Shown piece after piece: positions 2,354-29,029 of a DNA stretch of 57,391 nt. The stretch is taken from the NCBI GenBank assembly GCA_015056055.1, contig SVHC01000018.1, positions 1 through 57,391 on the forward strand, given 5' to 3'. The position numbers and the translations under genes are program-made. The notes beneath the pieces were generated by a model, which was given only the letters and a program-made list of their open reading frames with translations, was not told where the DNA came from and did no database searches. This DNA comes from Clostridiales bacterium (lineage in GTDB: Bacteria > Bacillota > Clostridia > Christensenellales > Aristaeellaceae). How positions within the stretch are numbered: position 1 is the stretch's first letter; each line of letters starts with the position of its first letter.

Positions 2354-4360
2354 ATGGAAAAACCGAAGTATTATATCACTACGCCGATTTATTATCCCAG
2401 CGATAATCTGCATATCGGTCACAGCTATTGCTCCACTGCCGCAGACACCATGGCCCGCTTCAAGAAGCTGACGGGTTATGATGTATTCTTCCTGACCGGC
2501 ACGGACGAGCATGGTCAGAAGATCGAGCGCAAGGCAGAGGCTGCCGGCGTGACCCCGCAGGCATATGTTGACAACATCGTTGCCGGCATCAAGGACCTGT
2601 GGAAGCTGATGGACGTTGAGTACAACGATTTCATCCGCACCACCGATGAGCGCCATGTAAAGGCCGTTCAGAAGATTTTCAAGCAGCTCTACGAGCAGGG
2701 CGACATCTATAAGAGCGAGTACGAAGGTCTGTACTGCACGCCGTGCGAGTCCTTCTGGACCGAGCTGCAGCTGAAGGACGGCTGCTGCCCCGACTGCGGA
2801 CGTCCCGTTGAAAAGACCCGCGAGGAAAGCTATTTCTTCCGCCTTTCCAAGTATCAGGATTGGCTGATCAACTATATCAAGGAAAATCCGGATTTCATCC
2901 AGCCGCCGTCCCGTACTGCGGAGATGCTCAATAACTTCCTGATTCCCGGCCTGCAGGACCTGTGCGTTTCCCGCACGACCCTCAAGTGGGGCATCCCGGT
3001 AGACTTTGATCCCAAGCACACCGTATATGTATGGGTCGATGCACTGACCAACTACATCAACGCTCTGGGCTACGGTTCCGACGATGATTCCCTGTACCAG
3101 AAGTACTGGCCGGCAGATATGCACCTCGTCGGCAAAGAAATCGTTCGTTTCCACACCATCATCTGGCCGATCATGCTGCATGCACTGGGCCTCCCGCTGC
3201 CCAAGCAGGTATTCGGTCACGGCTGGCTGGTTATCGACGGCGGCAAGATGAGCAAATCCAAGGGCAACGTCGTTGACCCGGTAAAGCTCTGCGAACGCTA
3301 TTCCTCCGATGCAGTCCGCTATTTCCTGATGCGCGAAATGCCGTTCGGCTCCGACGGTGAGTTCACCAACGAAGCTCTTATCCGCCGCATCAATTCCGAC
3401 CTGGCAAACGATCTGGGCAACCTCGTAAGCCGCAGCGTTGCAATGATCGAAAAGTACTTCGGCGGCACCATCCCGGCTCCGGCAGAGTACAATGAGCTGG
3501 ATCAGAAGCTGATCGAGCAGGCCAGTACCCTGTGGGAAAAGGTTGAAAAGAGCATGAATGGCCTGCAGTTCTCCGCCGCACTGAGCGAGATCTGGAAGCT
3601 GATCGGCGATTGCAACAAGTATATCGACCTGACCACCCCGTGGATTCTTGCCAAGAATGAAGAGGATCGTCCGCGTCTGGGCACCGTTATGTATGTGCTG
3701 CTGGAGTGCGCACGCATCGTTGCCGTACTGATTTCTCCCACCATGCCCCGCACGCCCGAGCGCATCTTTGCGCAGATTGGCGTAGATGACGAAGCCCAGA
3801 AGACCTGGGAATCCGTCAAGACCTTTGGCGGCGTAAAGCCGGGCAACATGGTCAAGAAGGGCGAAGCTCTGTTCCCGCGCCTCGACATCGAAAAGGAACT
3901 GGCCGCATTCTGCAGTGCAGACGCAGCTCCCGCCGAGGAAAAGAAGGAAGAGAAGAAGGAAGAAAAGAAGCCCGAAGTCAAGGCCGAAAAGAAGGAAGAA
4001 CCCGCCAAGACGGAAGAGGTCGAGACCTTTGAGCAGATCACCATCGACGATTTCGCCAAGGTTCAGCTGATCACCGCCAAGGTTCTGGCCTGCGAACGTG
4101 TACCGAAGGCGGATAAGCTGCTTAAGTCCACTCTGGATGTAGGCAACGGCGAAACCCGCACGGTTGTTTCCGGCATTGCAAAGGCTTACACTCCTGAGGA
4201 GATGGTCGGCAAGACCGTTATCCTGGTTGCAAATCTCAAGCCTGCCAAGCTGCGCGGCATCATGTCCGAAGGTATGATCCTGTGCGCATCGGATGCAGAG
4301 GGCAACCTGAAGCTCCTGTCCCATGAGGGCGAGCTGCCTGCAGGTTCGGAGGTTCGCTGA
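2354..4360 (+). CDS. metG: Methionyl-tRNA synthetase with C-terminal Trbp111 domain
   Basis: Charges tRNA-Met with methionine using ATP, in the cytoplasm. 668 aa; ATG 2354 follows GGAGGG at 2341. It shows the class I HIGH motif (residues 20-23), a zinc knuckle with CTPC and CCPDC around residues 130-150, and KMSKS at 298-302. A Lys/Glu-rich linker (about residues 520-555) leads to a C-terminal tRNA-binding OB domain (about 562-668), as in bacterial dimeric MetRS. It is regulated by the T-box upstream, and tatD follows with its ribosome site inside the metG end. Nothing is unusual apart from the highly charged, repetitive linker. Confidence 0.97.
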   Translation: MEKPKYYITTPIYYPSDNLHIGHSYCSTAADTMARFKKLTGYDVFFLTGTDEHGQKIERKAEAAGVTPQAYVDNIVAGIKDLWKLMDVEYNDFIRTTDERHVKAVQKIFKQLYEQGDIYKSEYEGLYCTPCESFWTELQLKDGCCPDCGRPVEKTREESYFFRLSKYQDWLINYIKENPDFIQPPSRTAEMLNNFLIPGLQDLCVSRTTLKWGIPVDFDPKHTVYVWVDALTNYINALGYGSDDDSLYQKYWPADMHLVGKEIVRFHTIIWPIMLHALGLPLPKQVFGHGWLVIDGGKMSKSKGNVVDPVKLCERYSSDAVRYFLMREMPFGSDGEFTNEALIRRINSDLANDLGNLVSRSVAMIEKYFGGTIPAPAEYNELDQKLIEQASTLWEKVEKSMNGLQFSAALSEIWKLIGDCNKYIDLTTPWILAKNEEDRPRLGTVMYVLLECARIVAVLISPTMPRTPERIFAQIGVDDEAQKTWESVKTFGGVKPGNMVKKGEALFPRLDIEKELAAFCSADAAPAEEKKEEKKEEKKPEVKAEKKEEPAKTEEVETFEQITIDDFAKVQLITAKVLACERVPKADKLLKSTLDVGNGETRTVVSGIAKAYTPEEMVGKTVILVANLKPAKLRGIMSEGMILCASDAEGNLKLLSHEGELPAGSEVR

Positions 4361-4361
4361 T

Positions 4362-5123
4362 TTGATTTTATTTGATACGCATACGCATATCAACGACGCG
4401 CGGTTCGATGAGGACCGCGCGTCCGTAATTGAGAATATGCTCGCAGCGGGCGTAAAGCTCGCAATGGTCGTGGGCGAGGCAAGCAAAGATCACGATATTG
4501 CCTTTGAGCTTGCCGAGGCGTATCCTTTCCTGTATGCCGCTACGGGCGTGCATCCGCATGAGGCCAGCAAATGGTCGAAGGATGTGGAAGAGCGCATTGT
4601 GCAGGCAATGGCGCATCCGAAGGCACGTGCGCTGGGCGAGATCGGGCTTGACTATCATTATGATCTTTCGCCGAGGGAAGAGCAGCGCGAGGTATTTGCA
4701 CGCCAGCTTGCCATGGCGAAAAGCCTGGATAAACCCGTAATCGTGCACATCCGCGAGGCGCACGGAGAGGCGATGGATATTATGCGCGCCTGCGATTTGC
4801 CCAGGGGCGTTCTGCACTGTTACACCGGCAGCTGGGAAAGCGCGAAGGTATATCTCAATATGGGATTTTATATCTCGCTGTCCGGCGCGGTCACGTTCAA
4901 AAATGCGCCCAAGCTTGCCGAGGTCGCGCAGAATGTGCCTCTGGACAGGCTCCTTGTGGAAACGGACTGCCCCTATATGGCGCCCGTTCCCATGCGCGGA
5001 AACCGCAATGAACCCGCATTTGTGGAATTCACTGCCCGCAAAATTGCTGAACTGCGCGGCATGGATGCGGAGGAATTTGCCTTTGCCGCATATGAAAACG
5101 GAAAAAGACTGTTTGGAATATAG
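4362..5123 (+). CDS. tatD: TatD family metal-dependent DNase
   Basis: 253 aa. The likely start is TTG 4362, one base after the metG stop, with GGAGG at 4348-4352 inside metG; an upstream ATG at 4323 would overlap metG and has no ribosome site. The metal-site motifs are FDTHTH at the N-terminus, GEIGLDYH in the middle, HCYTGS and ETDCPYMAP near the end. The length equals the family norm. metG-tatD is a common Firmicute pair. TatD enzymes are metal-dependent 3'-5' nucleases, thought to act in DNA repair or turnover. It is translationally coupled to metG and so is probably also under T-box control. Confidence 0.93.
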   Translation: MILFDTHTHINDARFDEDRASVIENMLAAGVKLAMVVGEASKDHDIAFELAEAYPFLYAATGVHPHEASKWSKDVEERIVQAMAHPKARALGEIGLDYHYDLSPREEQREVFARQLAMAKSLDKPVIVHIREAHGEAMDIMRACDLPRGVLHCYTGSWESAKVYLNMGFYISLSGAVTFKNAPKLAEVAQNVPLDRLLVETDCPYMAPVPMRGNRNEPAFVEFTARKIAELRGMDAEEFAFAAYENGKRLFGI

Positions 5124-8679: not shown

Positions 8680-10584
8680 TTATTCGCCCAGATACAGATC
8701 GGCGTATTCCTGCGCTTCGGCGATGAATTCCTCCAGCGTGAGCTTATCTGCCAGGAATTTCTCTATGGGTTCTTTCAGATAGTCTTCCGCATTGGCGAAA
8801 CGGTTGATAAACTTGCCGGTCGAGAGATAATGCTGCCACTCGGTCATTTCTTCTTCCGTAGGAAAGATAAACATGCTCAGAACATTGTTGTCACTCAGGA
8901 ACTTGATGTACTCGTTGTTTTCAAGACTGGGCAGGAAGAACTGCGAACCGACGGAAGCCCAGTTCTGTATTTCCACAGAGGTGAAGATTTCCATAAGTTC
9001 CACCGCAGCATCTGCGTGCTCGCTGTATTTGTTGATATAGTAGGCTTGCATCTGAATGGGAGTTACAGTTTCGCCGTCCAGCGTGGGCATGCCGAGATAT
9101 ATGCGGTCGTCCTCAAGTCCACCCATTTGGGGCATATTGACGAGAGGCGAATACTCATACGACAGCAATACCTGCGATGATGCACCATAACCGTGGATAA
9201 TCATATATTCGTCTTCCAATTGCTTCCACATGGCTGCAAGCTTGCGGAAGCTATCTGTATCATAGTTCGCTACGCCGCCTACAAGATCGCAGTACAGACC
9301 TTCATACTGGGCGCGGATTACGTCCCATAGTCCATAGGAGTCGGAAGCTGTAAGACGGAGTCCGTGTTCCCGGGCAACATCGGCAAGGGCAAAGAAATCA
9401 TCCCATGTCCATGTCTTTGGGTCGATATCCAGATTCAATTCGTCCCAAAGTGCCCTTGTCATTACGAATCCCATCGGAAGAACCATGCCCGGAATGGCAT
9501 ACAGGCTGCCATCGCTTTCGTACAGGAATGGCATGTCCGCCCACTGGGCGATGTTTTCGCCAATTACGGTGTTTTCCGAAAGATCCATAACCAGACCGGA
9601 CATTTTGAGCGGCGCGACCGCGTCGGTCATGGGAACGTACAGAATATCGTATCCCGGCTCATTTGCCATCAACGCCGTACGGAGCTTTGCCATCTGCGGA
9701 TAGGATGTCAGCTTTACGGTATATTCCGGATGGCGTTCCTCGAAAATTTTGATGGTTTCGGTCATGCGGTCATCATATTCTGCCTGTGTGCCGCCAACGA
9801 TGGTCAATGTCTTTTCTTCCACGCTTTCGGTCGGAAGCGGATATACGCACAGCGCGCCTTTATAGATTGCGTATATACCGTCATCTCCCAGCTTCACATC
9901 GTCTATGAAACTGTTGTCCGGAAGCTTTGCGTAAGAGACGGTTTCGCCATGCAGTGCATCGAGGAAATGAATGTTTCCGGAATTATAGAGGTAGAATCCC
10001 TCATCTGCCGAACTGCGTGCAATGTTGGTGTGGGCAGAAAGGTAATTGCCGTCAATCTCATTCAGCGTGGCACTGTCAATGACGGATACGCCATTTCCAT
10101 CGGACAGAATGAAGGAAGTGCTGTCGTAAGGGGAAATATCGCCATAATAGGCAAGCTTTTCAGAGGATATGGTTTGCGCAGCACCGTCCTCTATGCAGAC
10201 GGAACCGTATGCATCATCCGACAGGAAGATGATGTGCGTATCGGTGGACAGAATCTCCGTCAGACTTTCAAGCGGCGTTTCCCATTTGGCGAGTTCGTTT
10301 CCGGCACTGTCTGCCTTGATGATATTTCCTTCAAGGCTGTAATAGAAAGTGCTGTCCGCGCCGATGGCATAGCAGTCTGCGCCGGGCAGGATGGCTTTGC
10401 CGGTCTGCTTGCCGTCTTTGGCAAAGGGGGCAAGTCCTGCGCTTGTGTGCATCCAGACGGTGTCACCCTCGATGGAAACAATGGACAGAAGCTTCAGTTC
10501 GTCCTCTGCGCCTGCCGGGAAAGCCGCGCAGCCCAGGAACAATGCGAGCGTGAGAATCCATGCGAATAATCTTGCGGTTTTCAT
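8680..10584 (-). CDS. Secreted beta-propeller / ABC-type solute-binding protein fusion
   Basis: 634 aa. Start chosen at ATG 10584, 7 nt from AGGAGG; the ATG at 10590 is only 1 nt from it. The signal peptide ends in CAAFPAGA before a Glu; the Cys in LGC is a poor lipobox, so signal peptidase I is likelier. Residues 27-265 are propeller-like short beta units (DTVWMHTSAGLAPF, YAIGADSTFYY). From about 270 the chain is a family 1 solute-binding protein: KIFEERHPEYTVKL, DILYVPMTDAVAPL, a YAIPGMVLPMGFVMTR hinge, TWDDFFALAD. No permease or ATPase gene is near, so transport is unproven. The N-terminal module recurs in the gene at 27578, under an almost identical promoter region. Confidence 0.82.
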   Translation of the reverse strand: MKTARLFAWILTLALFLGCAAFPAGAEDELKLLSIVSIEGDTVWMHTSAGLAPFAKDGKQTGKAILPGADCYAIGADSTFYYSLEGNIIKADSAGNELAKWETPLESLTEILSTDTHIIFLSDDAYGSVCIEDGAAQTISSEKLAYYGDISPYDSTSFILSDGNGVSVIDSATLNEIDGNYLSAHTNIARSSADEGFYLYNSGNIHFLDALHGETVSYAKLPDNSFIDDVKLGDDGIYAIYKGALCVYPLPTESVEEKTLTIVGGTQAEYDDRMTETIKIFEERHPEYTVKLTSYPQMAKLRTALMANEPGYDILYVPMTDAVAPLKMSGLVMDLSENTVIGENIAQWADMPFLYESDGSLYAIPGMVLPMGFVMTRALWDELNLDIDPKTWTWDDFFALADVAREHGLRLTASDSYGLWDVIRAQYEGLYCDLVGGVANYDTDSFRKLAAMWKQLEDEYMIIHGYGASSQVLLSYEYSPLVNMPQMGGLEDDRIYLGMPTLDGETVTPIQMQAYYINKYSEHADAAVELMEIFTSVEIQNWASVGSQFFLPSLENNEYIKFLSDNNVLSMFIFPTEEEMTEWQHYLSTGKFINRFANAEDYLKEPIEKFLADKLTLEEFIAEAQEYADLYLGE

Positions 10585-10605
10585 TTTCATTCCTCCTTTT
10601 TTATG

Positions 10606-10685: not shown

Positions 10686-10713
10686 AGTATAGCATTTGAG
10701 ATTCGCTTGTCAA
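10686..10713 (-). promoter_or_regulatory. Sigma-A promoter of the propeller/solute-binding gene
   Basis: On the minus strand: TTGACA (10713-10708), a 16-bp spacer and TATACT (10691-10686), about 100 bp before the start codon. The triple repeat at 10721-10776 ends 7 bp upstream of its -35 box. Confidence 0.88.
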
Positions 10714-10720
10714 TAGATTC

Positions 10721-10776
10721 TGTCTGAAAGATACATTTTGGCGTCTGAATTATACATTTTCGCGTCTGAAATTACA
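10721..10776 (-). repeat. Triple 21-bp-period direct repeat, putative activator operator (site A)
   Basis: On the minus strand TTCAGAC occurs three times at exactly 21-bp spacing. The first two copies are followed by GC and then AAAATGTAT; the third, at 10721-10729, is TTTCAGACA. The last copy ends 7 bp from the -35 box. The same block, 46 of 52 bp identical, precedes the gene at 27578 in the same orientation. Half-site length and two-turn spacing resemble LytTR-type activator sites, but the cognate regulator is not in this window. Confidence 0.8.
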
Positions 10777-27376: not shown

Positions 27377-27433
27377 AAAAAGCCTCTGCATTGGGGACTG
27401 TTTAAAAGCAGTCTTGATGCAGAGGCTTTTTTT
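27377..27433 (+). terminator. Terminator of the asparaginase gene
   Basis: Outer stem 27377-27391 with 27417-27431, a smaller inner hairpin between the arms, and seven T (27427-27433). Confidence 0.88.
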
Positions 27434-27440
27434 GAAATGA

Positions 27441-27492
27441 CATTTCAGACGCCAAAATGTATAATTCAGACACGAAAATGTACTTTTTAGAC
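27441..27492 (+). repeat. Triple 21-bp-period direct repeat, putative activator operator (site B)
   Basis: Second copy of the operator found at 10721-10776, in the same orientation to its gene. TTCAGAC occurs at 27444 and 27465, and the diverged TTTAGACA at 27485-27492, all at 21-bp period; AAAATGTA lies between the repeats. 46 of 52 bp match site A. The last repeat ends 8 bp from the -35 box. Confidence 0.8.
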
Positions 27493-27500
27493 AAAAACGC

Positions 27501-27529
27501 TTGAAAGGGTAGAAGTGGAATGTTATACT
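27501..27529 (+). promoter_or_regulatory. Promoter of the propeller/DUF6273 gene
   Basis: TTGAAA 27501-27506, a 17-bp spacer and TATACT 27524-27529. The -10 hexamer is the same as at the paralogous gene (10686-10691). Confidence 0.85.
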
Positions 27530-27577: not shown

Positions 27578-29029
27578 ATGAAAAACATGAGAAGAATATC
27601 GTGGTTGCTTGCAATGGTTCTGATTCTGGGATGCACGGCATTTCCTGCAGGTGCGGAAGGGGAGATGAAGCTTCTTTCCATCACAGCGATTGAGGAAGAT
27701 ACAGTTTGGGTACATACAACCGCAGGTCTTGTTCCTTTTTCGAAGGAAGGGGAGATGATTGGCGAGCCGCTTTATCCTGAAGCCGAATACTATGCAATCG
27801 GTCCCGAAGGAACCATATATTATGGTATCGACCGCAGTGTTATTGGCGTGGATAGAGAAGGGAATCAGGTTGATCTACTGAAAATGCCCTTTGGCAATGT
27901 GAAAAGACTGCTGTTTAATGATGCATTCATGCTCGTAATTATGAATGGTACGCAATATTCTTCCATGGGCATGGAAAGCAGAGCTATGAAAGTTAAGGAG
28001 CTATCAGGAACCAAGGATATCGAATTTTACGGAGCAGATAGGTTTGTTGTTTTGCGCGAAAATATTGTATCGCAACTGATACTGGCGGAGTGCAACGAGT
28101 CGGGAGAAATCGATTATATGCAGCTGAACGATCTTGCTAAGTACGAGGGCATTGTATTTAATCCCGCAGGAGAAGGATGCTATTTGTATACGCAGGAGGA
28201 GATTTACCGACTGGATTCATTTGACGGCGAGGCTTCTGTCTACATGAGCCTTCGTGATATGGGAAATATCAGCGATGTGGCATTCGGTCAGGACAATGTT
28301 TATGTCATCGCTGATGGGGTTCTTAAAGCTATCGAGAAGCCGGATTCGAATGCACAGGGTGATGCGGTGGAGGTTGAGGTTCATTTTACATTCGGTTCCT
28401 ATGAACAGGATAATAATCCGGAAAACGGGCCGGAACCGATAGAATGGCGCATATTGGATGCAAAAGATGGAAAAGCACTTGTAATCAGTACCCATGCACT
28501 GGAGCTGATGCAGTATCATGAGCCTTCTGAAGTAGACAGGAAGACAACATGGGAAAAATGGGATTTGCGGACGTGGCTGAATGGTGAATTTATGGAAGCG
28601 GCATTTACCGAGGAGGAGAAGGCGCGGATTCCTGTTACCACGGTAAAAGCGCATATGGCGCATGACTGCTATACTGACCCGGGCAATGATACGCAGGATC
28701 AGATATTCCTGCTGAGTGTTCTGGAGGCAAGGCAGTATTTCTCGTCGAATGGCGCACGCAAATGCTTGCCCACAGCCGCTGCGACTGCAAATTATGCACT
28801 CCGAAATGGGGAAGAATGGATTCCGCAGAAATTGTGGTACGGTGAGAATATTGATGGAGAGTGCTTCTGGTGGCTACGGTCGCCCGGTGAATCCGGCGGA
28901 AGTCCTTCGTGCGTAAATGGGGGCGGATTTATAGCATACTTTACAAGCATCGACATGAATCGTTTGGCAGAAGGTCTCAAGGTTGAATATGGAGTCCGTC
29001 CGGCAATGTGGCTAGAACTGGAACCGTAA
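27578..29029 (+). CDS. Secreted beta-propeller / DUF6273-domain protein
   Basis: 483 aa; ATG 27578, 7 nt after AAGGAGGA. The signal peptide ends LGCTAFPAGA before Glu. Residues 25-260 are the same propeller-like module as in the gene at 8680: EMKLLSITAIEEDTVWVHTTAGLVPF aligns almost residue by residue in pieces, as does YYAIGPEGTIYY. From about 275 the C-terminus is a DUF6273-type domain: FGSYEQDN, IEWRILDAKDGKALVIS, WDLRTWLNGEFMEAAF, QIFLLSVLEARQYF, CFWWLRSPGE and YGVRPAMWLEL. This domain is common in secreted proteins of gut Clostridia and resembles the formylglycine-generating/C-type lectin fold. Function unknown. Monocistronic. Confidence 0.82.
   Translation: MKNMRRISWLLAMVLILGCTAFPAGAEGEMKLLSITAIEEDTVWVHTTAGLVPFSKEGEMIGEPLYPEAEYYAIGPEGTIYYGIDRSVIGVDREGNQVDLLKMPFGNVKRLLFNDAFMLVIMNGTQYSSMGMESRAMKVKELSGTKDIEFYGADRFVVLRENIVSQLILAECNESGEIDYMQLNDLAKYEGIVFNPAGEGCYLYTQEEIYRLDSFDGEASVYMSLRDMGNISDVAFGQDNVYVIADGVLKAIEKPDSNAQGDAVEVEVHFTFGSYEQDNNPENGPEPIEWRILDAKDGKALVISTHALELMQYHEPSEVDRKTTWEKWDLRTWLNGEFMEAAFTEEEKARIPVTTVKAHMAHDCYTDPGNDTQDQIFLLSVLEARQYFSSNGARKCLPTAAATANYALRNGEEWIPQKLWYGENIDGECFWWLRSPGESGGSPSCVNGGGFIAYFTSIDMNRLAEGLKVEYGVRPAMWLELEP

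Follow-up and report, generated by a model that had tools for sequence, protein, structure and literature searches.

The window, a stretch of 57,391 nucleotides of the host genome, contains two genes for probably secreted proteins, each preceded by an array of three direct repeats and a sigma-70-type promoter. Both arrays were seen in the sequence and were recovered by R1, a model built from relatives only that is described below. The features are:

8680 to 10590, minus strand: gene for a probably secreted 636-aa protein, a putative target, with a C-terminal SBP_bac_8 solute-binding domain (residues 279-555); signal sequence by eye
10686 to 10691, minus strand: -10 element TATACT; the proximal TTCAG is 32 bp away
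10708 to 10713, minus strand: -35 element TTGACA, a consensus match by position only
10721 to 10776, minus strand: triple-repeat operator of the gene at 8680-10590
10764 to 10770, 10743 to 10749 and 10722 to 10728, minus strand: the three TTCAGAC copies of the first operator, with an exact 21-bp period
27436 to 27492, plus strand: triple-repeat operator of the gene at 27578-29029
27444, 27465 and 27486, plus strand: half-sites of the second operator (TTCAGAC, TTCAGAC and TTTAGAC), the repeats spanning 27444-27492
27501 to 27506, plus strand: -35 element TTGAAA, 8 bp past the last repeat
27524 to 27529, plus strand: -10 element TATACT, with a 17-bp spacer; the proximal half-site is 33 bp away
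27578 to 29029, plus strand: gene for a probably secreted 483-aa protein, a putative target, with a DUF6273 domain (residues 298-480); signal sequence by eye

An earlier description based on the letters of the window (the sequence-only reading) had reported three TTCAGAC copies at an exact 21-bp period before a TTGACA/TATACT promoter, and both elements were found where it placed them, as were the 46 identical bases in the 52-bp block shared by the two sites; its 7-bp gap between the last TTCAGAC and TTGACA was recounted as 8 bp, and the -35 and -10 elements there are separated by 16 bp. Its account of the site before 27578 stood as to the orientation toward the gene and the 8 bp to the -35; the third copy there reads TTTAGAC. 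The single heptamer is unremarkable, with 15 copies in the window; the pair TTCAGAC-N14-TTCAGAC occurs three times, as compared to none in 100 dinucleotide shuffles. The layout is that of LytTR-type sites, with at least two direct repeats of 9-11 nt that are separated by 10-13 bp (a period of about 21 bp) and stop a few bp before the -35, 8 bp at both window sites. A likely terminator, consisting of a 15-bp perfect inverted repeat and a T-run (27377-27431), ends just upstream of the second operator, so that the operator promoter would begin a transcript of its own.

The genome-wide search that the sequence-only reading had proposed, for paired TTCAGAC at a 21-bp period, returned 18 matches to TTCAGAC-N14-TTCAGAC in the host genome (G000; 2.83 Mb, 95% complete) and none to the reversed pattern. 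Triple TTCAG at 21-bp steps, with two mismatches or fewer, gave 36 matches versus 3 for the reversed control; 12 of these are clear triple sites (10 exact, two with one mismatch), and the remainder are chance-like or overlap true sites. All 12 are located 32-34 bp before the best -10-like hexamer (33 bp in six cases, 32 bp in five and 34 bp in one, with a search range of 26-41 bp downstream and ties broken towards 33 bp), and these hexamers are TATAAT-like. Across the 66 pairs of host sites, the 55-bp operator averages 0.82 identity, compared to 0.26 for the preceding 72 bp, 0.47 for the stretch between operator and -10 and 0.32 for 60 bp downstream; the most similar operators are near-identical (55/55 in the C5 pair, 54/55 between C8 and C79). 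Since the flanks are unrelated, the sites are not residues of one recent duplication, an explanation that had been raised together with the original proposal of a small regulon. That regulon, as now delineated in the host, comprises the 12 triple sites, listed here with the genes behind them, and one probable site with two half-sites:

C7 27578, C8, C28, C33 and C79: DUF6273 genes
C7 10590, C5a and C60: solute-binding-domain genes
C5b: gene for a 358-aa protein without a Pfam match
C9: ABC permease gene
C21: gene for a Band_7/SPFH protein
C63: nfeD-floA
C59:13798-13861 (L067 3799-3862), minus strand: probable 13th site, two half-sites 21 bp apart, matched by R1, 33 bp from TAGAAT

Downstream of the last of these are a reading frame of 51 aa and a gene whose start resembles a double-glycine leader (by eye); an AgrA-like LytTR gene is located near this site. 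Four further R1 matches were not counted as sites, one at C68:17282, which is at tRNA genes and is missing the distal half-site, and three partial ones at C29, C39 and C40. The host encodes 11 DUF6273 domains in 10 genes, five of which have an operator directly upstream. The N-termini of the DUF6273 and solute-binding proteins behind host sites, inspected by eye, indicate that these proteins are probably secreted. DUF6273-like domains of phage proteins are described as resembling C-type lectins in extracts from the literature consulted (among PMC4847170, PMC6193735, PMC11347149, PMC8581546, PMC10743442, PMC11237479, PMC13384398 and PMC4227749). The expectation that further sites would precede genes for secreted proteins was thus borne out in that more genes for probably secreted proteins were found, but it was too narrow, as nfeD-floA, SPFH and ABC genes are also among the putative targets and form the part conserved in relatives.

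The sequence-only reading had placed the regulator outside the window, and a candidate is indeed encoded on another contig, C63. There, a triple operator heads a four-gene operon, nfeD-floA-X-lytTR, the last gene of which (G000:C63:18889-19632) encodes a response regulator with a receiver domain (PF00072, 91 bits) and a LytTR domain (PF04397, 67 bits); the two genes that follow lytTR are, as we recognise them, tldD and tldE. Asp56 of the receiver, which from general knowledge of the family we take to be the phosphoacceptor, is invariant in an alignment of 10 sequences. In a comparison of the regulator with PDB sequences, the best 60 of 233 matches all fall on the receiver part. The X protein starts with a hydrophobic segment and varies in its middle part, and its C-terminal stretch is similar in most of 10 relatives (by eye). 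No partner histidine kinase was recognised by eye among the reading frames of the 10-kb C63 locus. The host genome contains four LytTR genes in total, on C63, C40, C35 and C59; the C63 protein shares only 23% identity with the C59 protein and 19% with the C40 protein.

Exact triple TTCAG occurs in 26 of the 151 genomes of the family, 25 of them other than the host, as compared to six non-host genomes for the reversed pattern. The non-host matches resemble coding sequence (by eye), and footprints were therefore sought upstream of orthologues of the regulator. Among 40 orthologue loci fetched, nfeD was found upstream in 33 (L135, L137, L141, L143, L154, L170 and L173 were left out). These 33 loci share a footprint of two half-sites before nfeD, GACAnTTgAG-N11-TATnTTTgrG, which beats the 20 shuffles of its own locus in 30 cases, the exceptions being L157, L160 and L169; the consensus was written after the sequences had been inspected. 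The proximal half-site is exactly 33 bp from the best -10 in 29 of 33 loci (ties broken towards 33), and the -35 boxes of the relatives' nfeD promoters appear weak by eye. The TT.AG core is complete in 16 of the 33 distal half-sites and in seven of the proximal ones, and at -21, the position of the third half-site in the host, in none. R1, a sequence-only model derived from these 33 loci with the host excluded, finds each of the 12 host sites with an E-value of 0.016 or lower; its host matches at E <= 10 number 26. In the congener G006 (83% complete), it detects one strong site besides that at nfeD, and the putative DUF6273 targets are likely to be new in the host.

The presence of the operator across the family follows that of the regulator. 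An orthologue of the C63 regulator is encoded in 93 of the 151 genomes, and a strong R1 hit (E < 1e-3) is found in 83 of these 93 as opposed to three of the 58 genomes without it, a contrast for which Fisher tests ignore shared ancestry; of the 60 orthologue-bearing genomes that did not contribute to R1 training, 51 have a strong hit. Ten orthologue-bearing genomes have no strong R1 hit. The three hits without an orthologue are in G101, where the operon is cut by a contig end, and in G121 and G122, which are incomplete and have no FloA in the assembly; genus g4 contains two of the exceptions to the regulator/operator rule. FloA itself is encoded in 142 of the 151 genomes, and only one (G101) of the 51 that have FloA without the orthologue shows a strong hit. 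Similarly, none of 19 regulator-less nfeD-floA loci scores above 50 shuffles, L323 having been excluded from the original 20 for too short an upstream sequence. In genera with mixed content, the regulator and the strong hit are absent together (G087 and G109 in g18, G032 and G070 in g32, G116 in g33, G075 in g47). Taken at the level of sequence, the predicted operator is seen to track the regulator and not floA. Genus g45 separates the two genes: contig assignments and coordinates place lytTR away from nfeD-floA in G074, G099, G119 and G138, and the operator remains at nfeD-floA. In G045 of the same genus (L170), no footprint was found in the 3 kb before the unlinked lytTR, and autoregulation is therefore not universal.

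Forty strong R1 sites away from a linked lytTR were taken from the top of the list down to an E-value of 2.7e-6. Ten of them are the nfeD-floA promoter on contigs or at places apart from lytTR, an assignment made by FloA coordinates for nine and by contig ends for G024, several being assembly-split operons. Behind the other 30 are 11 genes for Band_7/SPFH or flotillin-like proteins, nine for ABC ATPases, two for XpaC-like Halogen_Hydrol proteins and eight others, namely a Zn-ribbon protein, DUF4003, TetR, a P-type ATPase, a DUF6199-like protein (below cut-off), L286 (no family), and L262 and L281 (no domain scan). On the basis of this tally, the predicted targets shared with relatives are membrane-organising and transport genes, and the C21 Band_7 and C9 permease sites of the host agree with these classes. 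Class-wide, the regulator protein is present at E <= 1e-40 in 25 of 291 genomes, the host included. The order nfeD-floA-lytTR is kept in 15 of the 20 genomes fetched from the 24 non-host ones (FloA was out of reach in five of the 20); together with L290 and L291 (C. cibarium), this gives 17 loci outside the family, L292 and L365 having been taken as one contig and counted once. In 12 of the 17, the half-site footprint scores above all 200 shuffles; L374, L375, L377, L379 and L290 do not reach this level, and with a longer model of 72 columns that includes the promoter, L290 and L291 are not above shuffles. The predicted pair of switch and site hence recurs in many Clostridia. In two loci outside the family, L364 and L376, nfeD adjoins lytTR, and FloA was not found between them or nearby.

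The resemblance to LytTR activator sites that the sequence-only reading had seen in repeat length and spacing gains from the half-sites as well as from the LytTR response regulator gene behind one operator. LytTR sites, as excerpts of the sources describe them, are direct repeats of 9-11 nt with 11-13 bp between, just before the -35 (PMC4847170, PMC6193735, PMC4227749). Half-sites such as GACATTTCAG agree at 8 of 10 positions with the YpdB motif as given there, GGCATTTCAT (PMC4847170). The operator described here has the direct-repeat layout before the -35 in common with those of YpdB, AgrA and HdrR/BrsR and differs from those systems in that three half-sites are often present and the regulator gene is inside a flotillin operon. 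Three LytTR direct repeats about two helical turns apart, as in the host operator, are reported for CoxC and RcoM1 (PMC11347149); these regulators differ, however, in sensing CO, in controlling CO-oxidation genes and in their half-site, TTCNNGCA, and CoxC represses. Among LytTR regulatory systems (LRS), including LRS-like operons of Bacteroides, are autoregulatory LytTR operons with repeats before the -35, and the membrane protein of the Bacteroides version is described in an extract as having an NfeD-like domain, with its gene upstream of the LytTR gene (PMC6193735). Unlike LRS, in which a soluble LytTR regulator precedes the gene for a membrane inhibitor, the operon considered here has a receiver domain on the regulator, membrane-protein genes upstream of it and FloA among them, and an inhibitor role for these membrane proteins is putative, by analogy. 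Among the matches listed in a literature search on LytTR/LytR with flotillin, floA, nfeD or SPFH, no title or abstract start pairs LytTR with FloA; both kinds of term occur in PMC10647425 and PMC7481793.

In view of the above, the repeated block very probably serves as the binding site for a LytTR-type switch encoded in the flotillin operon. We consider it likely that the block is a LytTR-type operator that is read by the C63 receiver-LytTR regulator and serves to activate flotillin/SPFH membrane genes. In the operator, copies of a half-site close to GACATTTCAGAC would follow one another as direct repeats every two helical turns, ending 8 bp before the -35, and the product of G000:C63:18889-19632 would bind to them. 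Upon activation, probably by phosphorylation and presumably in response to envelope stress, the regulator would occupy adjacent half-sites on the same side of the helix and aid RNA polymerase at promoters with a -10 about 33 bp away. Its targets would be the operon that encodes it, nfeD-floA-X-lytTR, and, among relatives, further genes for membrane organisation and transport; in the host species, the operator has a third half-site, and DUF6273 and solute-binding-domain genes, including both window genes, would be extra targets.

Activation is the part of this scheme that would be reversed if the regulator bound and repressed, the repeats blocking the promoter until a signal arrives, as with CoxC, which is reported to bind three LytTR repeats and to repress (PMC11347149). 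The near-consensus -35 boxes at several host sites would fit such a role, as boxes of this kind need an activator less; yet the CoxC repeats overlap the -35, whereas those described here stop 8 bp upstream, the position reported for LytTR activators, and we regard repression as unlikely. It is quite unlikely, too, that another LytTR protein of the host (C40, C35 or C59) reads the operator, with nfeD-floA-lytTR merely one of its targets. The existence of four LytTR genes and the two-half-site version near the C59 regulator (C59:13798-13861) speak for this arrangement, and they have to be set against the family-wide co-occurrence of the operator with the C63 orthologue, the one LytTR gene whose spread was computed, and against the low identity of the C59 and C40 proteins to the C63 protein.

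Two further explanations would dispense with a LytTR regulator. The near-fixed spacing to the -10 could be that of a promoter element for an alternative sigma factor, but the TATAAT-like -10, the repeats of 21-bp period upstream of the -35 and the lack of repeats at floA promoters without lytTR make this very improbable. Even less credible is an origin of the blocks as ends or relics of a mobile element (IS21-like elements come to mind), for which the near-identical blocks at many loci could be cited; it was dropped on account of the unrelated flanks, with no shared sequence beyond the repeats (0.26 upstream over the 66 pairs), and the near-fixed distance to the -10, and the occurrence of the footprint before the nfeD orthologues of relatives also argues against it.

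For flotillin genes and the other membrane-organising SPFH genes of Clostridia, the C63 protein and its predicted operator are a named regulator and binding site that can be put to the test. They would also represent a case of regulon rewiring in one lineage, in which an operator made up of two half-sites in relatives contains three in the host, where it precedes DUF6273 genes and genes with fused solute-binding domains, whose role is unknown. Promoters for ECF sigma factors have a -10 of a form other than TATAAT, and the host -10 hexamers are TATAAT-like. The closest parallel in flotillin control is sigma-W of Bacillus subtilis, an ECF sigma factor that, in the excerpt consulted, controls FloA, FloT and pspA-ydjGHI (PMC8581546); the likeness is in one stress regulator for several SPFH proteins, and the difference is in the putative use here of a DNA-binding response regulator at TATAAT-type promoters. 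A more speculative and rather doubtful extension, by analogy with the membrane inhibitors of LRS, is that the flotillin/NfeD/X scaffold gates the LytTR regulator, so that a loss of membrane order would free it to rebuild the microdomain machinery. If so, the system would be a closed membrane-state sensor, a counterpart of sigma-W across many Clostridia, that was rewired in the host lineage to a set of surface proteins via the third half-site. Apart from this operon, the C35 LytTR domain is in a short reading frame of 151 aa behind ABC-transporter-like genes (L066 about 4200-4485, plus strand; G000:C35:21200-21484; layout by eye), and this short protein is possibly an LRS-like regulator.
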